Part shown: positions 4,171 through 55,203 of the stretch, piece after piece
How the letters are laid out: every line of letters starts with the position of its first letter
How positions within the stretch are numbered: the first letter of the stretch is position 1
Origin: Cyclobacterium xiamenense
GTDB lineage: Bacteria; Bacteroidota; Bacteroidia; Cytophagales; Cyclobacteriaceae
Direction of reading: 5' to 3'
Length of the DNA stretch: 55,203 nucleotides
Assembly: GCF_009467825.1 (NCBI RefSeq)
Contig: NZ_WIOK01000032.1
Location: 1-55,203, forward strand
Position numbers and translations under genes: made by a program
The notes under the pieces: generated by a model
Told to the model about the DNA's origin: nothing
Database searches by the model: none
The model's input: only the letters and a program-made list of their open reading frames with translations

Positions 4171-4431
4171 ACCGGAACGATGCGTTAGCCTATCTACTAC
4201 GAACCGAAACTGCTTCAGGAACAGTCGCTACGCTGCGGTTTTCGATTTCAACCTGGCCGCGCTATGCCTCCATCTCCAAACAGCCTGGTTTTCTTGCAGT
4301 ATCCATTAACCTAACGATTCTTCATGCATGATCCGGGTTAATGGGAGCCGGCCTGGGACGCTAAAGGCAGCCTATCCCCGCACATCGATTGCCTCGACCT
4401 GATCCGGTAGGCAGAGGATCGTACCGAACCT

Positions 4432-5814
4432 TCACCGCACCGGAACGGGGAATACGGGCAGGCTTTCTGCACCATTTGCTCCCACGGCCTGCACGGCAAA
4501 GAAGTAATTGTCCTTGGAGTAGGGCAGTTCCATTTCCAGCGCTTCGGTATAAAATTTTCGCTTCCACATGGAATCGCTCGTTTCCCGCATCAGCACGTAG
4601 TAGCCGCGGGCGGTACCGTTTTCCGGGCTTTTCCAGCGCAGCCGCGTGGCATTGCTCAGCCCGCTGATATCCACCCCTACTTCCTGGGGCACCCCGGGTG
4701 CGGAGGCCAGACTGGCCAACACGGCCAGGTTTACCGAAGTATTTTTACGCAGGTATTCGTAATCGATGTGCTCGATCAAGTCCCCGTATTGCTGCCCTCC
4801 CTCCATTCGAAGGTCCTGGTGCTGCTGGAAATAGTTTTCGTTCATTTCGCAGAGACGCACGGCCGTAAATCCTTCCCGGGAGAAGGGGGTATGGTCCCCT
4901 CCCCGTAGAAACCGGTCGTTGCGGTAGATCAACTTGATCTCCAGCTGATCTACGTAGCGCTCGCCCACCTCCTTGATGTAGCGGGCCAGTTGCCGGGACT
5001 TGCTGTCGTTTTCGGCATTGGTGGAGCGGCGCAGCGCGGCCATTTGTTCGGTTTCTACCAGGGGAATGCCCTCGCTAAACACGCGAAGCCGGGTATTGTC
5101 CCGCAAGTTGGTGCCGCTGGACGCGCTGTTGCCGATCATGTCGTTATTGATCATGGCCACCAGGTTCCAGTTTTCTTCGCTTGCCCGACGGGCAAGATAC
5201 GCCGCACCGATCAGGCCTTGTTCCTCCCCCGATACGGCCACAAAGATAATGGTGGCGGGAAAAGGCTGCTGACTCATGATTCGAACCATCTCGATCAGGG
5301 CGACCACACCGGAACCGTCGTCGTTGGCGCCCGGGGCATCGTCGGTCGCGTTCATGATGTCCGAAACCCGGCTGTCAATGTGTCCGCTGACCAGAAACAC
5401 CCGGTCATCTTCCGGATCGGTTCCTTGTAGCGTCGCCATCACGTTGCCCATGCGCACCTCCCGGTCCACCCGTCGCCCGTTCGGTTCTACCTGGAAATAA
5501 TCAATCGTCGCGCTTAACCTGCCTTCGGAACCCGCTTCGAAAGATTGGAAACGAGACAGGACGTATTGCCGGGCGGCCTCGATCCCGCGACCTTCCTCCT
5601 CCGGGCTTAGCGTATGCCGCGTGCCGAAACTCACCAGGTCTTCCAGGTACTCCTGCAAACTGTCGGTGGACACCTGCGCCACCATGGATGCCAGTCCGGG
5701 ATCGCGGTGCACGGCAGGCACCTGTGCCCTTCCCGAAAAAGGCAGCGTGAGAAGAAAGCCCAGACCGAGTAGGACCAAATAAGGGATAGCATAGAGATGG
5801 ATTCGCTGTTTCAT
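4432..5814 (-). CDS. M28 family zinc aminopeptidase, secreted
   Basis: A 460-residue protein with an N-terminal signal sequence (1-30) followed by a complete M28 peptidase domain. The two-zinc ligand set is visible: H145 and D147 in GHIDSR, D165/D166 in GANDDGSG, the catalytic Glu pair E197/E198 in SGEEQG, D225 in NNDMIG and H309 in GGDHTPF. This predicts removal of N-terminal residues from peptides outside the cytoplasm. The C-terminal ~95 residues look like a fibronectin type III module (RLRWKSPENG...YYVLMRETSD). No type IX secretion tail is recognisable. The start at 5814 was chosen because the upstream ten codons precede a normal signal peptide. It is transcribed divergently from the M48 protease gene. 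Confidence 0.92.
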   Translation of the reverse strand: MKQRIHLYAIPYLVLLGLGFLLTLPFSGRAQVPAVHRDPGLASMVAQVSTDSLQEYLEDLVSFGTRHTLSPEEEGRGIEAARQYVLSRFQSFEAGSEGRLSATIDYFQVEPNGRRVDREVRMGNVMATLQGTDPEDDRVFLVSGHIDSRVSDIMNATDDAPGANDDGSGVVALIEMVRIMSQQPFPATIIFVAVSGEEQGLIGAAYLARRASEENWNLVAMINNDMIGNSASSGTNLRDNTRLRVFSEGIPLVETEQMAALRRSTNAENDSKSRQLARYIKEVGERYVDQLEIKLIYRNDRFLRGGDHTPFSREGFTAVRLCEMNENYFQQHQDLRMEGGQQYGDLIEHIDYEYLRKNTSVNLAVLASLASAPGVPQEVGVDISGLSNATRLRWKSPENGTARGYYVLMRETSDSMWKRKFYTEALEMELPYSKDNYFFAVQAVGANGAESLPVFPVPVR

Positions 5815-10350: not shown

Positions 10351-11994
10351 TTATTCCGCTACTCTTTCAAATAGAATATTTTTCACCGTGCCCTCCGATG
10401 CCACCTCAAAATACAGGATGTCCTGCTTATTTTTTCCATGAAAACTGTATTTCGTTCTTCTATTCGCCCCAAATACTCCGGTTTGCCCCTCGGTGAGGAC
10501 CAGGCGATTATTGGGGTACGTTAAAACCAGTTGCTGATCGATTACCTCTAGCACATAGGTCACATCTAGTTCTTTGGAATAGTAGTTCCCTGCATAGATT
10601 TCCAGATGCTGATTGGGCTGATCCGCTAGTTGGATTCTCTCAAAATAAAAAATAGCACCGCCAAAATCTACCTGTAGCGCATCATCCGCATCTCCTTGTC
10701 CAAAGGTGTAGGTAATATACGGATTGTCGATTCGGAAGAATCGATTCGGGCCTTCCGGAATGAGGGGCGTGCCCGTACTTCCCCTGCTGCTAACCGCTTT
10801 CAAGGTATCGTTCTCCACATAAATCGCCATGCGCAAATCGCTGTTTAATTCCTGGTAGGTTCCGGTAAGGGCCTTTAAGTCCGCCGGCGAATGAGGGGTA
10901 AACGTTGCCTGTTGACCGGCTTCTGCCGGTTCCTGCACAAACAGGTCCAGGATCTGGTAGGAGAGATTGACGGCATTGATAGTTTCATCGTTTGCAAATA
11001 CAACCACGGCTACGTTTAGGGCTGGAACGGCGATAAATTGGCTGCGCATGCCCCGATCCCGTCCGCTGTGATGGTAGGTGGTAAGCGCCTTATAGGGAGA
11101 AACAAATAGTCCCCTGGCATAGCTCATCCGTTCTCCATTAGTCAGGGTATCCCGTTGCGTGAGGAAATCTTTCAGGTAGGAAAAATCATGTGCGGGGTTT
11201 AGGAATAGTTCCGACCAGCGGAGCATATCGGGAATGGTACTTTCCATGCCCCCGGCTCCTACGCAAAGGGTGAGGGATTTGGGTTGGCGATATCCCTTCT
11301 CCGTGGCAAAATAGGGATAGGCCCGGTTGGGGACAAGGGTTTCCAGATCCTGGATAAAGAACGTTTGTTCCATATCCAGGGGGTCGAAAAGTTCCCGTTT
11401 TGAAAATTCATGCAGATCCATCCCGGACACCCGTTCCACGATCAGGGCCAGAAAAACGTAATTCGTATTGGCGTACAGCATTTTTTCGCCCGGGGCGTTA
11501 TTGACACCTTTTTGCCGAAACATCAGGTCTTGAATCATTTCATTGGTGTAGCCCTGATGGCTGTAGTCAAAGCCTTTTAAATCCAGCAGCACGTTGTGGT
11601 TTCGGATTCCACTGGTATGGTTGAGCAAATGCTTTATCCGGATCGTGTCCCCATAAAACGCCAATTCCGGGATATACGTTCTTACATCCTCCTCTATGGA
11701 TAATTTACCCTGCTTCTCCAATAGACCGATGCAGGCGGCTGTAAATTGTTTGGTAACCGAGGCCAGCCCGACCACCGTGGAATCATTGAATGGGAGTTGG
11801 TATTCCAGGTTCATATTTCCCCTGCTGCCTTGGTACAGGACCTGCCCGTCTTTTACCAGGCCAACGGTTAGTCCGGGATGTGATTCCTCCGGTACCACTT
11901 CCATTAACAGCGCATCGATGCTGTTTTTCACCGGGTTTTGGGCATGTACCTGAACAGCCGTAAGTATCCATAATAAGAGGCAGAAGGATTTCAT
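10351..11994 (-). CDS. Serine hydrolase, beta-lactamase/class C fold
   Basis: A 547-residue secreted protein (signal peptide 1-18, ending VHA-Q) with a beta-lactamase-related (PF00144-type) domain. The catalytic motifs are S79-V-T-K82 (SxxK) and Y174-A-N176 (YxN), with HHSGRDRG later acting as the HxG-type third motif. Such proteins are esterases, D-aminopeptidases or peptidoglycan peptidases; the reaction cannot be told from sequence. The C-terminal ~150 residues form a beta-rich domain typical of Bacteroidota members. The start at 11994 removes an unlikely 74-residue extension and restores the signal peptide. Confidence 0.9.
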   Translation of the reverse strand: MKSFCLLLWILTAVQVHAQNPVKNSIDALLMEVVPEESHPGLTVGLVKDGQVLYQGSRGNMNLEYQLPFNDSTVVGLASVTKQFTAACIGLLEKQGKLSIEEDVRTYIPELAFYGDTIRIKHLLNHTSGIRNHNVLLDLKGFDYSHQGYTNEMIQDLMFRQKGVNNAPGEKMLYANTNYVFLALIVERVSGMDLHEFSKRELFDPLDMEQTFFIQDLETLVPNRAYPYFATEKGYRQPKSLTLCVGAGGMESTIPDMLRWSELFLNPAHDFSYLKDFLTQRDTLTNGERMSYARGLFVSPYKALTTYHHSGRDRGMRSQFIAVPALNVAVVVFANDETINAVNLSYQILDLFVQEPAEAGQQATFTPHSPADLKALTGTYQELNSDLRMAIYVENDTLKAVSSRGSTGTPLIPEGPNRFFRIDNPYITYTFGQGDADDALQVDFGGAIFYFERIQLADQPNQHLEIYAGNYYSKELDVTYVLEVIDQQLVLTYPNNRLVLTEGQTGVFGANRRTKYSFHGKNKQDILYFEVASEGTVKNILFERVAE

Positions 11995-12044
11995 TTTGAT
12001 AGGTGGTATCTGGTTTTCTACGAAGGAAGGAATCCAGGCAGGTA

Positions 12045-12656
12045 TTAGGTTGCTGCCTGACTTGCTTGAAACATTCGGAAGAAGAAAAAGGGGAGAAAGC
12101 CCAGGCCAAAGAGCAAAAAGCCCAGCCCCAGCAGCAGACCGGCCCCTTGTAAATGGAGTAATTTGAAAAGGCATGCCGCAATCAATACCATACCAGTCAG
12201 GGAACCCAACAGCCATTGTAGTTTTCCGGAAAGGTGTAAAAACAGCCTGTTTTTGAGTTTGGTGACCAATAACAAGGGCAGGAAAACAAAGGCAAAACCC
12301 AACATACCCGCATACAGTAAGGAAGTAGCCCCCGGCAAATACATGATTTTAAAAAAGGCACCGAGGGTAGCCGAAAGGGCAAACACATAGCCTGAGAGGA
12401 AGGTGCATTGGCTTAGGAGCAGGCGCTTTTTATGGTTGCGTAGATAAAGCGTTTCCTGCTGTATTTCTCCAAATCCATTGGGCGTGATTTGCGCATACGC
12501 GGCTTTAAAGGCGTTTTCAAAGGATTGCCCGCTTTGCATTTCCGCCTCTACAACGCAACAAAAATGGTCGATCAGGTCATCCTGCAATGCTTTGTCGGCA
12601 ATTTCACTGTGCCGAATGGCCCGGCTGATGATGGTTAGTTGTTGCTCGGAAATCAT
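12045..12656 (-). CDS. Four-helix membrane protein with HAAS-like N-terminal domain
   Basis: A 203-residue protein with a soluble helical N-terminus (about 1-75) and four membrane segments (about 80-100, 110-128, 145-163 and 168-190). The N-terminal part (LIDHFCCVVEAEM, SFENAFKAAY) resembles the HAAS-like domains encoded next to PadR regulators, which may signal to the regulator. Its start codon overlaps the stop codon of the PadR gene by 4 bp (ATGA at 12653-12656), so the pair is co-transcribed and coupled. Precise function is unknown; such partners often sense envelope or membrane conditions. Confidence 0.8.
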   Translation of the reverse strand: MISEQQLTIISRAIRHSEIADKALQDDLIDHFCCVVEAEMQSGQSFENAFKAAYAQITPNGFGEIQQETLYLRNHKKRLLLSQCTFLSGYVFALSATLGAFFKIMYLPGATSLLYAGMLGFAFVFLPLLLVTKLKNRLFLHLSGKLQWLLGSLTGMVLIAACLFKLLHLQGAGLLLGLGFLLFGLGFLPFFFFRMFQASQAAT

Positions 12657-13000
12657 ACGGCTGGAGTGGTTTTCGTGTCGGTAAAGATGATTTTGTGTAG
12701 CGTGCCCATAAAGTCGGCCAACTCCCGCACGGCCATTTTCTGCTCACCTTTGCCTTTGGGTGTCAGGGTATAGTACTTGCGTACCCGTTTTCCCAAGGCG
12801 ACTTCCTCGGTGGTAACCATGCCCTCTTGGAGCAGCTTGTGCAGGATCGGGTAGAGGCTGCCGTCTTTGATCAGGATTTTACCGTCCGAAATGCCCTTTA
12901 CTTTCTGGCAGATTTCGTATCCGTACATTTTTCCGTTTTCTTCCAGGAGTTTTAAAATAATCACCCCCAGGGTGCCTTTTAACAATTCTTTTGAATACAT
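12653..13000 (-). CDS. PadR family transcriptional regulator
   Basis: A 115-residue winged-helix protein of the PadR family, short subfamily. It begins SKELLKGTLG and has the recognition-helix/wing segment GSLYPILHKLLQEGMV (about 48-63), then the typical RKYYTLTPKGK. The ATG at 13000 is preferred to the upstream start at 13066 because PadR domains begin within a few residues of the first Met. PadR proteins usually repress their own operon and respond to a ligand or stress. A 6-7-6 inverted repeat lies right at the promoter (13011-13029), and the target membrane protein gene follows with a 4-bp overlap. Confidence 0.93.
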   Translation of the reverse strand: MYSKELLKGTLGVIILKLLEENGKMYGYEICQKVKGISDGKILIKDGSLYPILHKLLQEGMVTTEEVALGKRVRKYYTLTPKGKGEQKMAVRELADFMGTLHKIIFTDTKTTPAV

Positions 13001-45034: not shown

Positions 45035-45646
45035 ATGATCCCCCATGAAAAATCTGACCAATCGGAAGAGCCATTCACTTCTTATGGCCATTATACCTAT
45101 TTGGACTATCTCCAATGGCAGATGGATGAAATGGTGGAATTGATCAAGGGTAACGTATTCCGGGCGGCTACTGCACCGCGAAGGATCCATCAGGAACTTT
45201 TGCTGGAAATGGCCAGAATATTTGCTGACTACCTGGATCAACATCCCTGCAAGGTGTTTATTGCCCCATTTGATGTTCGTCTTCCTGAGGACTCCAACCT
45301 GCCTGAAAAAATAGATACCGTGGTACAACCGGATAGTTGCGTGGTTTGCGACCGCAGCAAATTGGACGAAAGGGGCTGTTTGGGTGCACCCGACCTGGTG
45401 GTGGAAATCCTATCTCCAGGCAATAACCAGAAAGAGCTCAAGCAAAAATATGACGTTTACGAAAAAAGTGGGGTTAAAGAATACTGGATCATTCATCCAG
45501 ATGAACAGACTTTATTGGTCTACCGGCTAATTAATGGTGCCTATCAGCCCAGCCGCTTACTCACCCATGGAGATCTGGTCCATTCTCAGGTAATTACAGG
45601 TTTTAAATTAACTATTTCGGACTTATTTGAAAGTTCGGAGGATTAA
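45035..45646 (+). CDS. Uma2 family endonuclease, copy 1
   Basis: A 203-residue Uma2 (DUF820) protein with a PD-(D/E)XK-like core. The visible active-site elements are VQPDSCVVCD (about 95-104), GAPDLVVEILSPGN (about 115-128, with the catalytic Asp and Glu) and the KYDVYEKSGVKEYWIIHPDE block (about 136-155). A second, closely similar copy lies at 52278-52883, and both share the opening Y-x-Y-T-Y-x-D-Y. Uma2 proteins are abundant in cyanobacteria and Bacteroidota and their role is unclear. A strong terminator follows directly. Confidence 0.9.
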   Translation: MIPHEKSDQSEEPFTSYGHYTYLDYLQWQMDEMVELIKGNVFRAATAPRRIHQELLLEMARIFADYLDQHPCKVFIAPFDVRLPEDSNLPEKIDTVVQPDSCVVCDRSKLDERGCLGAPDLVVEILSPGNNQKELKQKYDVYEKSGVKEYWIIHPDEQTLLVYRLINGAYQPSRLLTHGDLVHSQVITGFKLTISDLFESSED

Positions 45647-45726: not shown

Positions 45727-46872
45727 TTATTTTATTTTCAACTTTAATTGATAAAAAGTAACTTTATCCTCCTCCACCCCTAAATAATCCTGGTCCTTCA
45801 GACCAAAAATAGCTCCATTTTCATCCACCACACTGCTGAGCGTAATACCCTGTGGAACCGCAATATCCTTTTGCAGTATCCGATGTTCCCGGTCCAGAAC
45901 CGCCAGGTAATTGGTGATTTGAAGGGAAAATGCCGCTCTTTCTTCCATCGTATTCCTGGGAAAGGATTTGGCCTTTTCCTCCTCCATACCCTTGGTGTAA
46001 TGGATGAGGATCTGGCTGTCCAAAACAAACAGGTTTTGGATCCTGCCAAAGACATTGTAAAGACTCGCTTCGTAGTAATCATCCATGTTGGCCATGGGAA
46101 CACCCTTGATTGCGACGGCATCTTTCAGGTCCAGGTCGATGGTTTTTTGGTAAATCAAATGTTCCTCCTCCTGCCCGTACAGGTGATAGGCCAATTCGCC
46201 CCTGAAATAGACCAACCACTCCTCTCCGGCAGGAATCACGGTAGGAAAGGTCCAGTGGTAAAAATTACCGTCCTCGTATATCGTTCCGGGGGGAAAAGGC
46301 ATGGTCTGCCTGTAGGCACCTGTTTCCGGATCAAGTAGCTCCAGAATGGGACTGCGGTAAATGCTTGCAAACATTTCGGCCTGGTTGGTATAATCCTGTT
46401 CTCCCCTTTCCGGCCGGATATAAGCCAGTTCCTTTCCGAAGGCATGAACGGGACTTTTGAGCCCGTTGATAAAGGTGTACGGTGGATTTAAATCCATGCG
46501 CTTGACGATTTCTCCCTCCCTGGAAAAAAACAGCAAGCCCTTTGCGGCATCCATTACCGTGAATTGCCCCGTAAAAAAGCCCCATCCCATAGCCCAGGAG
46601 ATGGCATTGGGACCGTCCTTTGCCAGGTGAAACCGGGAACTGACGTTTCCTTCCCTGTCAAACAGCAATACTTCGTCCGTACCGTTGTCCATGCCCAGAA
46701 AAAGGTGGGTTAACGAGTCGTAGTCATAAAGAAACAGATTCCCCTGATAATCCACCTGAATGGAGTCAGTTACCATCAATTGATACGTAAAATCATCCTT
46801 GCTTTTTTTACCGTTATTGCTACACCCGAAAAAGGCCGAAGCCAAACAGCATATACAAAGCCCTATTTTCAT
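45727..46872 (-). CDS. DUF4221-like lipoprotein, copy 1
   Basis: A 381-residue lipoprotein (AFFGC, Cys17) with beta-propeller-like repeats: DSIQVDYQGNLFLYDYD (about 36-52), TDEVLLFDREGNV, HLAKDGPNAIS and a closing ALKDQDYLGVEEDKVTFYQ-like segment where the penultimate blade ends. It is a paralogue of the next gene upstream (47142-48305): both carry DSxxxDYxG, KDYD/YDYD, DDGPEAIS/KDGPNAIS, and GLKDQ/ALKDQ at the end. DUF4221 proteins are seen mainly in Bacteroidota with unknown role. The start at 46872 gives the lipoprotein leader. Confidence 0.75.
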   Translation of the reverse strand: MKIGLCICCLASAFFGCSNNGKKSKDDFTYQLMVTDSIQVDYQGNLFLYDYDSLTHLFLGMDNGTDEVLLFDREGNVSSRFHLAKDGPNAISWAMGWGFFTGQFTVMDAAKGLLFFSREGEIVKRMDLNPPYTFINGLKSPVHAFGKELAYIRPERGEQDYTNQAEMFASIYRSPILELLDPETGAYRQTMPFPPGTIYEDGNFYHWTFPTVIPAGEEWLVYFRGELAYHLYGQEEEHLIYQKTIDLDLKDAVAIKGVPMANMDDYYEASLYNVFGRIQNLFVLDSQILIHYTKGMEEEKAKSFPRNTMEERAAFSLQITNYLAVLDREHRILQKDIAVPQGITLSSVVDENGAIFGLKDQDYLGVEEDKVTFYQLKLKIK

Positions 46873-46983
46873 CTTCCCAAGATCCACAAAAGAAAATGAA
46901 ACCATTACATAAAAGGTGTTAAATTTTACTAATCGGGGGATTTTGGGAGATAAATAAAGGATTTTAATACTTAGCATGTCGAA

Positions 46984-47141: not shown

Positions 47142-48305
47142 TTACTCCCCTCCGTAGTCCAGTTTAAATTTATACACCGTATGAAAATCCTCTTCCACAC
47201 CTGCCTGTTCCTGGTCTTTTAGAGCCACGAGTTGGCCTTCCTTGTCCACTTGGGCTGTAAAAGGAACGATGCTTTTCGGAATGGGTAGGTCCACTGCGCG
47301 CAGGCCAAACTCCGAAACAAAAACGGCGAATTCCATGGGAAAGGAGTACACCAATTCCCGCCGCTGTGCTGGATCCGACACATCATAAGCCGCTTTCGTT
47401 TCGGGAGAAACCCCCTTGCTGTAAAAGGCGATAAAATGATCCTTCAGGGGTAAAAACCGGTGGATCTGGGGGATACGATACACCATTCCATTTTTTTCAA
47501 AGAAGGTATCCATCTGCTCCAATGGCACCGGCTGGTCCGTGAAGGCGTTCTTCGCCGGAATTTTTACCGTCTGCTCAAAGAGCAACTGCTGTTCCTTTTC
47601 GCTATAAACATGAAACTCCAGGGCATTGGTGACCGAAAGGAACCATTGGGAGCCGCTATTTTGAATAAGTGGCGTAGGATACCCGTAAAAGAGCCCTTCT
47701 TCAAAGGCATCAGTTTCCGGAAAATGCATGGTAGGATAATATTCGTCGCTGATTGTATCCAACACCTCCATCATGGGTCCTCCGTCCAACATGCGTTGGT
47801 AGGCTGCCTGCCGGTCCTGCCCCTCTTCCGCCGGTTCCGGTTTGTAGTACAGCAATTTATCCCCCAGCGAAGAGGCTGCTATATGCGCGCCCCCCACGAT
47901 CCAAAAATAGGGATAGGGTATCTCCGTCCGGTTCAACACCTTTCCCTCTCGGCTCAGGGTGTAGATTTTATCGCCAAAGATGCAGATGTTTCCTGCGGAG
48001 AACCTGGGGTTCAACCCATAGCCGCTGATGGCCTCCGGCCCGTCGTCTTGGAGGATAAACGTGTGTTGGATAGCCCCTGAGGTATCAAAAATCAAGACTT
48101 CCTTTTTTTGTTGGTTATAGGCCAGGTAGCGGTTGGTTTCCCGATCGTAATCCTTTAGTTCCAGGCTGCCCATATAGTCGATGCGAACGGAGTCTACCAA
48201 TTGAAGGGAATAGCTGGGGGAATGGGTAGTTTCCTTTTGGGAGCGGGAGCAGGACAGCAGGCAAGTTGCTAGTAGTGTTATTAGGACTAGGCGAAGATTC
48301 GACAT
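47142..48305 (-). CDS. DUF4221-like lipoprotein, copy 2
   Basis: A 387-residue lipoprotein (CLLSC, Cys19) similar in plan and motifs to copy 1: DSVRIDYMGSLELKDYD near 40-56, KKEVLIFDTSGAI, LQDDGPEAISGYG, ending LVALKDQEQAGVEEDF. The motifs suggest a six- or seven-bladed propeller that is displayed in the periplasm or at the surface. The two paralogues are separated by 269 bp, and copies of the same 20-bp palindrome lie on both sides of this gene, which hints at duplication by repeat recombination. The start at 48305 matches the signal peptide; the longer frame start does not. Confidence 0.75.
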   Translation of the reverse strand: MSNLRLVLITLLATCLLSCSRSQKETTHSPSYSLQLVDSVRIDYMGSLELKDYDRETNRYLAYNQQKKEVLIFDTSGAIQHTFILQDDGPEAISGYGLNPRFSAGNICIFGDKIYTLSREGKVLNRTEIPYPYFWIVGGAHIAASSLGDKLLYYKPEPAEEGQDRQAAYQRMLDGGPMMEVLDTISDEYYPTMHFPETDAFEEGLFYGYPTPLIQNSGSQWFLSVTNALEFHVYSEKEQQLLFEQTVKIPAKNAFTDQPVPLEQMDTFFEKNGMVYRIPQIHRFLPLKDHFIAFYSKGVSPETKAAYDVSDPAQRRELVYSFPMEFAVFVSEFGLRAVDLPIPKSIVPFTAQVDKEGQLVALKDQEQAGVEEDFHTVYKFKLDYGGE

Positions 48306-48477
48306 GATTAAAAGTAAAACTATTGGTTTAAAAAAACAAAGCAAAGCTTCCTACTTGCTGCTGTTAGGGGAATTTTTTTCAGTCCGTTTAAATGGCATTT
48401 ATTCAGCTTTAGTTGGTTAACTGTCCATTAGATTTACATGCACTAGTGGACCGCTAGCGCTTTCGGGTAGTGTAACT

Positions 48478-50984: not shown

Positions 50985-51001
50985 TTGACAAATTTTGTCA
51001 A
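50985..51001. promoter_or_regulatory. Palindromic operator for the XRE-MNT gene
   Basis: TTGACAAA-T-TTTGTCAA is a perfect 17-bp inverted repeat 29 bp before the ATG at 51031. Its size and position suit binding by the XRE domain of the encoded protein as autorepressor. Its presence also argues against the TTG start at 50995, which would lie inside the repeat. Confidence 0.6.
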
Positions 51002-51030
51002 GTTTTAAGTATCCAAAATCCAAAAATTGT

Positions 51031-51630
51031 ATGCGTAGCCTGGGAGAAACCATCAGGGAATTAAGGAATGAAAGGGAACTTCCACTTCGGACGGTGGCTG
51101 ATCATCTCGGTATTGACCAGGCTATTTTGAGTAAGATCGAACGCGGACTCCGAAGACCAAAGCGGGAGCTGGTAGTCAGACTGGCTGCTTATTTTCAAAT
51201 TTCCGAAAAAGATTTATTGCTGGCCTGGTTAGCAGACAAAATAACGTATGAGCTTGGTGATGAAGAGCTCGCTTTGGAAGCATTGCAAATGGCTGAAGAA
51301 AGGGCAGCTTATGCCGCATTTCAGAAAATTGACAGGGATCGGATTCTGAGAAAAATACAAAATGGAATCAGCAAATTCAAGCAGGTAAAAAAGGCCTGGA
51401 TATATGGATCATTTGCCAGGCAAGAAGATGGGCCGAAAAGCGATGTGGACATTGCGGTTCAAGCTGATCCCACTTTCTCCTATTTTGATCTGGTGGATAT
51501 CCAATATGCCTTGGAAAAAACCATCGACCGCAAGGTGGATATAGGATTTATCGATTCATTTAAACCTTATATTTTTGAGCAGGTAAAAAAGGACCTAAAA
51601 TTGATATATGAAAGAGAAGCATTGGGATAG
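51031..51630 (+). CDS. mntA: XRE-MNT fusion antitoxin (MntA-like)
   Basis: A 199-residue protein with an N-terminal XRE helix-turn-helix (about 4-60; LRTVADHLGIDQAILSKIERG) joined to a minimal nucleotidyltransferase domain (about 105-199). The MNT active site is complete: GSF at 126-128 and DVD at 138-140, with D170 as the third acidic residue. MntA enzymes add AMP chains to a tyrosine of the HEPN toxin and so neutralise it. The fused HTH lets one protein do both neutralising and operon repression. It overlaps the HEPN gene by 23 bp. An earlier TTG start at 50995 is rejected. Confidence 0.88.
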   Translation: MRSLGETIRELRNERELPLRTVADHLGIDQAILSKIERGLRRPKRELVVRLAAYFQISEKDLLLAWLADKITYELGDEELALEALQMAEERAAYAAFQKIDRDRILRKIQNGISKFKQVKKAWIYGSFARQEDGPKSDVDIAVQADPTFSYFDLVDIQYALEKTIDRKVDIGFIDSFKPYIFEQVKKDLKLIYEREALG

Positions 51631-51955
51631 CCAGAGGAGATTAGCGCAAATCCTTAAAGCCATAATTACCATCGACCGATATGTAGAAGGGTTGGATCGG
51701 ATTGCTTTCTGCAAAAACGGGCTTGTTCAGGATGCTGTATTGATGCAATTTATTATTATCGGGGAGTCAATCGACTACGTGGAAAACGAAAAATTGGTTA
51801 AATATGACTATCCATGGTATAAGGTTAAGTCCTTTAGAAATATGATCGCTCACGACTATTTCAACATCAAAATGAAAGCCGTTTGGGAAATTATCCAAAA
51901 AGACTTACCCCATTTAAAATCAATTGTTTCCGTAATTTTACAATCGGAGTTTTGA
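51608..51955 (+). CDS. hepT: HEPN toxin (HepT-like, DUF86)
   Basis: A 115-residue helical protein of the HepT/DUF86 family. The ribonuclease motif is R77-N-M-I-A-H82 (R-x4-H), followed by D83 and Tyr84; in the studied homologues the Tyr of R-x4-H-x-Y is the site that the MNT partner AMPylates. It is expected to cleave RNA (tRNA in the studied case) when free. The start codon lies inside the end of the antitoxin gene in another frame (23-bp overlap), so the two are translationally coupled, antitoxin first. Confidence 0.9.
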   Translation: MKEKHWDSQRRLAQILKAIITIDRYVEGLDRIAFCKNGLVQDAVLMQFIIIGESIDYVENEKLVKYDYPWYKVKSFRNMIAHDYFNIKMKAVWEIIQKDLPHLKSIVSVILQSEF

Positions 51956-53142: not shown

Positions 53143-53460
53143 AAGCACTGAAAGTGCGCAATACCCAAACACAGGGTGCAGCCCACATCAGTCCATAGAA
53201 AAAAATATGCCGCCCATACAGGGCTCAGAGCAACCGGGGATTCCCATGTCGATGGGCTACACCCATCGCTGAGGTATCCCGCCCTTTCAGGGCTTGGATG
53301 AATGAAAACCGAACGGAATCCCGAGCACTGAAGGTGCGCAATACCAAAGCACAGGGTGCAGCCCTGTGACAAAACCCGAAACCTAAACCCCAGCCCTGTA
53401 AGGGCGAAATATGTTTGCCAAAACGCTCATCAGTCCATAGAAAAAAATATGCCGCCCGTT
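53143..53460. repeat. Degenerate long repeat, two copies
   Basis: Two segments recur in the same order: GCACTGAAAGTGCGCAATAC-type at 53145-53164 and 53325-53344 (the latter with GGTGCG), each followed by an ACAGGGTGCAGCC box; and CATCAGTCCATAGAAAAAAA-type at 53186-53215 and 53428-53457, followed by TATGCCGCCC. GCACT-GAA-AGTGC can itself fold. GCCCTTTCAGGGC (53281-53293) adds another palindrome. The enclosing 928-bp gap (52884-53811) has no gene. Confidence 0.65.
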
Positions 53461-53811: not shown

Positions 53812-54039
53812 ATGAAAAAGTTAAATTTAGAAAAATTAAAGTTGGCAGCAGAGGATGTGCTACAGCGAAGCCAAATGGGAAATATTTATGGAGGATCCGG
53901 TAATTGCAATAACAATGGTTGGTGGAAATGTATGTGTTCGCCGGATGGTCCGTGGCAGTCCATATATATAACCGATTGTTCCTATCCTGAGGATGCGATG
54001 GTTGAGTGTGCTTGGGTGATACGATGTGAAAGGATTTAA
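53812..54039 (+). CDS. GG-leader peptide precursor (RiPP or bacteriocin-like)
   Basis: A 75-residue peptide whose leader (1-28: MKKLNLEKLKL, then an Asp/Gln-rich helix and QMGNIYGG) matches the class of Bacteroidota natural-product precursors that end their leader in Gly-Gly. The predicted core (29-75, beginning SGNCNN) is 47 residues, Trp/Asn-rich, with six cysteines at 32, 40, 42, 56, 66 and 72. An even number of Cys allows three disulfides or thioether rings. Export and cleavage by a C39-type peptidase transporter would be expected, but none is in the window. A hairpin follows, and a beta-propeller lipoprotein is encoded 62 bp downstream. Confidence 0.75.
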   Translation: MKKLNLEKLKLAAEDVLQRSQMGNIYGGSGNCNNNGWWKCMCSPDGPWQSIYITDCSYPEDAMVECAWVIRCERI

Positions 54040-54052
54040 TTTTTTGAAAATT

Positions 54053-54090
54053 TCGGAATATCCAAAAGGATATTCCGATTATATTATTTA
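54053..54090 (+). terminator. Hairpin between peptide precursor and propeller gene
   Basis: TCGGAATATCC (54053-54063) and GGATATTCCGA (54068-54078) form a perfect 11-bp stem with an AAAA loop, followed by the T-rich TTATATTATTT. It can act as a partial terminator or mRNA stabiliser, giving more precursor than downstream product. Confidence 0.6.
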
Positions 54091-54101
54091 AAAATAAAAA
54101 T

Positions 54102-55109
54102 ATGCTCCAAATACCAAATCTATATTTTTTCACATTTTTATGCCTTTTGACTATATTGATATCCTCTTGTCCATCCCCTTCAACTGTTAAAGAATTACCA
54201 ACCATTGTAATTCCTGAAAATATCGATTCAGATCTTTATTTAACTGATTTAACCCGTTCAGTACAGCGAGTACAATTAGAGACCAATGAAACTGCTCTTT
54301 TAGGAATAATTAAAGATGTCAAATATTATAATAAAAAATTTTATGTAAATGATGGAGTCCAGGTTCTCGTTTTTAACGATAAAGGAGATTTTCTTTTTAA
54401 ATTAGGAAATCAGGGAGATGGACCCGGCGAATATGGAGTTGTCTATTCCATGGCAATTGATTTCGATTCAAATTTGATTTATATCTCATCTGCTAGAAAA
54501 TTAATTGTTTTCTCTCAGGACCATGAATTGATTGAGGAAAGGAGATATCCTATGTTGCTTCCATATATTAATGTTATCGATAAGAACATATTGATCATTT
54601 CTGACGAAATTGTCGAAGATTCTGAGCTTGGAATTACTAATAACACAACTTTGTACAAGCTAGGTCATGATTTGATCGTTAATGATAGCTCAATGATAAG
54701 AAAAGTAATTATCGACGAAAATAAATCTACAGGGTATAATTTTAAATTTTATATATCAAGTGATGAGTTTGAAAACTATTTCTATAAACCAGTTTTAACA
54801 CAAGAGTCAATTTTTCCAGATACTCTCTACCAAATAGAAGGAGTTACAATGACACCATATAAAAAAATTGTTTTTGAAAAATCGAAAAAGTTAGATTTGG
54901 ATGGGTATATTACACCTTTAATGTTGAATATTTCTAACTCTTCCTCCTATATAGTATGTGAATATATGCAAGATGCTGAAAGAATGTTGTTCTTATATGA
55001 AAAGAGTACATCCAAATATTATAATTTGAAAAATGGTATTTTGGACAAAGATGGAATCCCTATCATGATCAGACCTTTAGATTCAAAAAACAATATTTTC
55101 TATTATTGA
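54102..55109 (+). CDS. 6-bladed beta-propeller lipoprotein
   Basis: A 335-residue lipoprotein (LISSC, Cys23), AT-rich like its neighbour. The mature part shows the pattern of the 6-bladed beta-propeller family (DUF5128-like): VQRVQLETNETALLGIIKDV near 54-73, then YYNKKFYVNDGVQVLVFNDKG and the hallmark GNQGDGPGEYG (about 105-115). Further blades include DFDSNLIYISSARKLIVF. The family's job is not known; in Bacteroidota these lipoproteins are often found next to small GG-leader peptides. The pairing here suggests a role in immunity, surface capture or sensing of the peptide. No biosynthetic enzyme is visible in the window. Confidence 0.82.
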   Translation: MLQIPNLYFFTFLCLLTILISSCPSPSTVKELPTIVIPENIDSDLYLTDLTRSVQRVQLETNETALLGIIKDVKYYNKKFYVNDGVQVLVFNDKGDFLFKLGNQGDGPGEYGVVYSMAIDFDSNLIYISSARKLIVFSQDHELIEERRYPMLLPYINVIDKNILIISDEIVEDSELGITNNTTLYKLGHDLIVNDSSMIRKVIIDENKSTGYNFKFYISSDEFENYFYKPVLTQESIFPDTLYQIEGVTMTPYKKIVFEKSKKLDLDGYITPLMLNISNSSSYIVCEYMQDAERMLFLYEKSTSKYYNLKNGILDKDGIPIMIRPLDSKNNIFYY

Positions 55110-55166
55110 ATAAGGCGTTTGTTAAATGGTTGGAATAAGGCTATATTGTCGTTAAACGCTGATTTT

Positions 55167-55203
55167 ATGGAAAAGAAGTATAAGAGTCTGTCTATATTCG
55201 AAT
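55167..55203 (+). CDS. Start of a CDS truncated by the window end
   Basis: An ATG at 55167 opens 12 codons (MEKKYKSLSIFE) that run off the window. The residues resemble the opening of IS-type transposases such as the IS1595 group, and a GCGTTT/AAACGC pair lies upstream (55117-55159), but twelve residues cannot decide it. Confidence 0.3.
   Translation, partial: MEKKYKSLSIFE

Follow-up and report, generated by a model that had tools for sequence, protein, structure and literature searches.

Co-varying peptide cores and propeller partners suggest an exchanged module behind a truncated double-glycine peptide locus of Cyclobacterium xiamenense

The locus raises the question of why a small cysteine-rich peptide gene with a double-glycine leader should be followed by the gene of a beta-propeller lipoprotein. 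It lies at the end of a 55,203-nt stretch of C. xiamenense DNA (hereafter the window, meaning that whole stretch), and a first reading, made from the sequence alone, had taken the pair as a candidate signalling or bacteriocin/immunity system. The features of the pair were as follows:

53812..54039 (+): precursor peptide with a GG leader, 75 aa, six Cys in the core (open reading frame; TIGR04149 18.6 bits; homologues)
53812..53895 (+): leader, 28 codons, ending in Gly-Gly (89 of the 90 leaders collected in relatives and here have 28 aa to the GG)
53896..54036 (+): core, 47 codons, six Cys, net charge −3
54053..54078 (+): hairpin between the peptide and propeller genes, 11-bp stem and AAAA loop (fold z −3.61)
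54102..55109 (+): propeller lipoprotein (DUF5128), 335 aa, truncated, with its stop codon at the junction with an insertion sequence (IS)
55107..55203 (+): end of an IS1595-type element at the contig end (55105-55203 identical to a copy near the end of contig C82 of the same genome; start of an open reading frame resembling the IS1595 transposase of Cyclobacterium locus L048 over 37 nt, 84%)

The GG-type leader and six-Cys core described by the sequence-only reading were confirmed in the open reading frame at 53812-54039, whose 28-aa leader is of the kind found in C39-exported double-glycine bacteriocins and precedes a core of 47 aa. A peptide search matched 27 of 196 genomes of the family, the C. 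xiamenense genome included, although three matches (G086, G100 and G128) were weak, lacked most of the leader and may be due to chance, and were dropped to keep 24. Moreover, this stretch was 93% identical to a locus of another Cyclobacterium (Cyclobacterium sp. Bin_11, L068), with 91% identity across peptide residues 12-75. Between these two loci, silent changes per site exceeded the others in the core (pS 0.114 and pN 0.026, from only three and three changes), the leader (pS 0.245 and pN 0.074, four and five changes) and the propeller (pS 0.083 and pN 0.020, 17 and 16 changes). Thus, the family-wide matches, the L068 copy and the excess of silent changes argue against a chance open reading frame. 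The Trp/Asn-rich core noted at first is true of this cassette but particular to it, other cores being highly variable. A second match in the same genome (C97:102931, E 0.06) was rejected as chance, since it fell inside a large helicase-like gene (named by eye).

The downstream gene had rightly been called a 6-bladed propeller lipoprotein, as its product matched PF17170 (DUF5128, ‘6-bladed beta-propeller’) with 80.2 bits against a cut-off of 22.9, carried a lipobox-like ISSC by eye and had the predicted fold of a propeller. Because the L068 homologue has 359 aa and the similarity to it breaks off at 55106, no more than 2 b from where the repeat begins, 24 C-terminal residues are missing from the protein in the window. 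Another cassette propeller, found in L048 at 11067-12808 (genome G067), had 330 aa where its homologues have about 380, and likewise ended by an IS1595-type transposase at a contig end.

The sequence-only reading had also stated that no modifying enzyme or C39 transporter was adjacent. This holds for the broken copy but is wrong for the system, since relatives carry C39-ABC and VKOR-thioredoxin genes beside the same type of pair, and it says little even here because the contig stops 94 b past the propeller gene. Across the C. xiamenense assembly, no match was obtained for C39 at E 0.001, for the cognate ABC transporter at E 1e−100 or for the VKOR-thioredoxin (VKOR-Trx) gene at E 1e−15. A C39 match of some kind appeared in the other 23 of the 24 genomes tested (a few with only a fragment or a VKOR fusion), and the cognate transporter was present at E 1e−100 in 3 of 12 Cyclobacterium genomes. 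Furthermore, a Pfam scan of the 11 main open reading frames of 43.7-55.1 kb, just downstream of which the contig ends, revealed no radical SAM enzyme, and the 20 kb read on the FtsY-side flank (contig C15) held no such cluster. L068 has codons 5-77 of the C39 gene 88 b past its propeller. Given the negative searches of the C. xiamenense assembly, which breaks at the IS, the exporter genes are likely absent from this genome, and the pair is probably a stranded module with its propeller cut by the IS.

The intact form was sought in relatives. The genome scan gave 45 named loci from ten genera, eight of these genera being placed under Cyclobacteriaceae in the NCBI taxonomy, while Rhodonellum and Anditalea fall outside it and were counted to the same family by the genome search. 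The clusters of relatives, mainly Cyclobacteriaceae, contained a C39-ABC transporter, an HlyD-family protein and a C39-like/VKOR/thioredoxin protein, and some also had LanC-like and glycosyltransferase-like proteins. In the cluster of G067 (L122), a different GG peptide had as neighbours a SPASM protein and a protein weakly resembling ATP-grasp enzymes, an arrangement of the grasp-with-spasm type. A total of 90 distinct peptides, including that of the window, were collected by the leader pattern, the downstream gene not being a selection criterion. In 84 of them an open reading frame of at least 150 aa followed within 700 b, with a median gap of 83 b (80 pairs); six had none by this rule, among which L066_7925 seems to have a partner hidden by the choice of start and L070_7908 a partner broken by a stop. 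Members of three propeller clusters followed 66 of the 90 peptides (26, 24 and 16). Among 82 distinct partner proteins, DUF4221 was matched by 25 and DUF5128 by 17, whereas Thioredoxin_8 (3/82) and CarbopepD_reg_2 (2/82) represented partners other than propellers; the third propeller cluster had no Pfam match in the member scanned. A lipobox was present by a crude pattern in 44 of the 76 partners of at least 300 aa, and others resembled ordinary secreted proteins by eye. As for the cores, 81 of 90 had an even number of Cys, and their charge was negative in 56 and zero in 12. Two peptides next to a full-length partner had lost their Cys.

The same order was found far from this family. A genome from a phylogenetically distant family of the phylum (L164) showed the gene order VKOR-Trx, peptide, DUF5128 propeller, C39-ABC, HlyD-family protein. 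It also carried a LanC-like gene, a C39 fragment with a match to PF03412, and another peptide gene with another DUF5128 gene behind it. A search with the peptide alignment across the phylum matched 4 of 395 genomes, an insensitive count as at most 14 candidates per genome were scored, and VKOR-Trx occurred in 41 of the 395. Among the 30 VKOR-Trx loci listed, propeller profiles matched the 1.5-kb flanks of 6 of 7 in distant family f24 and of 0 of 23 others, the short flanks making these zeros weak.

The similarity of cores and that of partners were strongly correlated among 73 non-redundant pairs (Mantel r 0.715, with a maximum of 0.090 in 2000 shuffles), in contrast to leaders and partners (r 0.045). 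For 67 of the 73 pairs, the partner of the nearest core in another locus belonged to the same cluster (about 14 expected), compared with 17 of 73 for the nearest leader. Two of the six misses came from a single apparent transposase insertion, counted once from either side (L055 and L090). The co-occurrence beyond chance that had been anticipated for peptide and propeller was therefore strongly supported, with 66 of 90 peptides preceding the three propeller clusters and core type predicting partner type. On the other hand, the nearest leader came from the same genus in 37.9 of 73 cases (16.0 expected), while the nearest core and the nearest partner did so in 18 each, some genus labels in this comparison being inferred. 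Mean normalised similarity was 0.71 for leaders and 0.13 for cores, the former inflated because the loci were found by their leaders, so that leader conservation is partly built in.

Co-inheritance through physical linkage only, with no functional relation, would be another account of these correlations, and the genes are indeed neighbours, as the median gap shows. However, the leader belongs to the same open reading frame as the core, and the C39 gene is as close or closer (median of 55.5 b from the partner, range −8 to 295, in 36 pairs before filtering), yet neither co-varied with core or partner. In 33 non-redundant pairs with a C39 sequence after the partner, core and partner were correlated with r 0.84, as against −0.03 for core and leader, 0.01 for core and C39, −0.08 for partner and C39, and between −0.10 and 0.01 for partner and leader; leader and C39 were weakly correlated (r 0.26, with 58 of 1000 shuffles as high). 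These values disfavour linkage alone, which we regard as very improbable. Since the leader and the nearby C39 gene do not track them, the comparison supports core and partner being a module exchanged as a unit, with exchange ending at the leader-core border and between partner and C39.

Other traces of exchange were seen in the arrangement of the loci. In Algoriphagus boritolerans (L057/L093), there were seven peptide-partner cassettes interspersed with six 5′ fragments of the C39 gene reaching codon 75-78. Altogether, 37 short C39 5′ matches were found, of which seven at a locus end were dropped; 25 of the remaining 30, some of which may be frameshifts rather than true truncations, lay within 100 b after an open reading frame. 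Moreover, pieces of the 3′ end of VKOR-Trx lay upstream of some peptides, and in Aquiflexum sp. TKW24L (L086) four genes of the DUF4221 cluster followed one another with no accompanying peptides.

The sequences themselves show the pairing, the co-variation, where exchange ends, what the clusters of relatives contain and the truncation, and from these a scheme of export, cleavage, disulfide formation, binding, toxicity and immunity can be proposed. The constant leader would direct a disulfide-rich core of variable sequence to an exporter made up of a C39 peptidase-ABC transporter and an HlyD-type adaptor; cleavage after Gly-Gly would fall to the C39 domain and disulfide formation to the VKOR-thioredoxin protein. 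A dedicated partner would be encoded together with each core. This would usually be an exported propeller, either lipoprotein or periplasmic, whose most likely role is to bind its own core and protect the producer. Core and partner would be replaced together by recombination with one end in the constant leader region and the other where the C39 gene starts, leaving cassette arrays and C39 fragments behind. Between the two functions first suggested, we lean towards bacteriocin and immunity. A polymorphic, disulfide-rich, bacteriocin-like peptide with an antagonistic core, and a propeller as its immunity or binding partner, is what we favour, with confidence slightly above even. The broader proposal, evenly balanced in our judgement, is that core and propeller make up a recognition module freely exchanged on top of an unchanging C39 export platform. 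The system would be one of polymorphic peptide toxins and immunity proteins (or of ligands and receptors), the propellers having diversified as peptide-specific partners, with recombination endpoints at Gly-Gly and where the exporter gene starts.

Several observations are awkward for the bacteriocin and immunity interpretation. Typical membrane-active bacteriocins are unlike acidic or neutral cores, which predominate here, and some partners are not propellers. Five partners were short (161-272 aa), away from contig ends and beside a peptide with an intact-looking core, and that of L070_7908 was interrupted by a stop; a full C39 domain was present in L070 and L071, where such short or broken partners occur, and this does not suit a simple antidote. 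In the window itself, the peptide frame is intact while the putative antidote is the truncated part.

The charge of the cores would be in keeping with ligand-receptor signalling, with a secreted pheromone, a specific propeller receptor in the cell envelope, polymorphism giving rise to strain-specific groups, and a LytTR regulator reading the output. The close match of core and partner types agrees with this, as do the stand-alone LytTR genes in Cyclobacterium clusters and a predicted fold like that of LRP6-type propellers, which bind disulfide-rich peptides. However, LytTR was found in seven loci, all from Cyclobacterium (the query was a Cyclobacterium protein, and more divergent regulators may have escaped it), an unsystematic look revealed neither a kinase nor a transmembrane relay linked to the partner, and the many different cassettes in one genome, together with the tandem partners lacking peptides, fit immunity better. 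We consider signalling rather unlikely.

Alternatively, a periplasmic or surface propeller could fold, display or help to secrete its own peptide, which would act elsewhere, for instance as an inhibitor. Such a carrier or anchor would be consistent with the lipobox or secreted-like start of the partners, with the VKOR-Trx gene, which points to folding in the envelope, and with the Sec-type Cys-bearing peptides that also precede propellers. Nevertheless, export through C39-ABC-HlyD should bypass the periplasm, and the tandem partners of L086 have no peptide to carry, which makes this role decidedly unlikely. The Sec-type peptides were noticed by eye in two places. On contig C82 (L014) of the C. 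xiamenense genome, two other DUF5128 propellers (4336-5794 and 10718-12200) followed small Cys-bearing peptides of this type, which suggests the same partner family with another export route; these two peptides may be NVEALA-like but had no Pfam match. In L053 (4792-6537), a relative of the clusters, two such peptides preceded a TolB-like 6-blade propeller (PF15869).

The putative antagonistic peptides with a partner for immunity can be compared with bacteroidetocins, class II-like bacteriocins of Bacteroidales (PMC6671954, PMC10352776), whose clusters, as far as the available parts of these papers describe them, share a GG leader, a Cys-bearing core, a thiol oxidoreductase and a peptidase-containing transporter. 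Compared by description, bacteroidetocins A and B have a 15-aa leader and four Cys, whereas here the leader has 28 aa and the core mostly four or six Cys. Moreover, the cassette arrays seen here do not appear in those parts of the descriptions (PMC6671954, PMC10352776), and a dedicated partner gene after nearly every peptide stands against the lack of an immunity protein stated there for bacteroidetocins (PMC6671954).

A parallel in organization is offered by polymorphic toxins, for which cassettes and strings of immunity genes are described in the part of the source available (PMC3482391). Like those loci, the collected peptide genes had a constant 5′ part for trafficking and a variable 3′ part, the latter apparently swapped with the adjacent gene, and formed rows of cassettes and immunity-like strings of genes. 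On the other hand, polymorphic toxins, in the same partial account, are large proteins with the toxin domain at the tip, whereas a core of about 46 residues is carried here on a double-glycine leader; the partners are also mostly propellers, and toxicity of the cores is putative.

With regard to known families, 27 of 28 aligned rows (one peptide appearing twice) matched TIGR04149 (GG_sam_targ_CFB) at E 0.1 or better, but the window peptide scored below the curated cut-off of 25 bits, and the scanned open reading frames of the window included no radical SAM enzyme. The propellers resembled in sequence and predicted fold the Bacteroidota families DUF5128 and DUF4221 (structures 4raa and 3s9j), which are listed without an assigned function and for which a peptide partner is proposed here. 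No open-access paper on a peptide-propeller pairing was found by title and abstract, nor any naming NVEALA, DUF4221, DUF5128 or their Pfam numbers. The proposal would supply a candidate function for DUF5128, DUF4221 and the cluster without a Pfam match in the member scanned, all large propeller families of Bacteroidota, and it predicts specific binding across dozens of natural peptide-propeller pairs.

The hairpin between the two genes was a recurrent part of the gaps between peptide and partner. A stem of at least 8 bp was present in 42 of 61 such gaps of 25-200 b. In control gaps of 30-200 b, taken between other same-strand open reading frames of the same loci, the count was 20 of 73 (Fisher P = 2e−6). 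The hairpin sequences varied between cassettes, and in L068 a U-A pair was changed to C-G on both sides of the stem (by eye). The hairpin may set the production of more peptide than partner.

Elsewhere in the window, two further propellers were found on the opposite strand:

47142..48344 (−): a relative of the second partner cluster with no GG peptide (orphan propeller; profile A4, 65.4 bits for 47142-48305)
45727..46977 (−): second orphan propeller of the same kind, without a GG peptide (profile A4, 89.3 bits)

Propellers similar to these two were present in Cyclobacterium loci L048, L049, L051, L054 and L098. Upstream of the peptide, 53250-53294 (+) and 53324-53368 (−) were repeats like Rfam RF01687 (Acido-Lenti-1), which scored slightly under the gathering threshold, and similar repeats were seen by eye near peptides in related loci. 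Finally, adjacent HTH-nucleotidyltransferase and HepT-like genes at 50995-51955 likely form a toxin-antitoxin pair, and Uma2 nuclease genes were located at 45035 and 52227.
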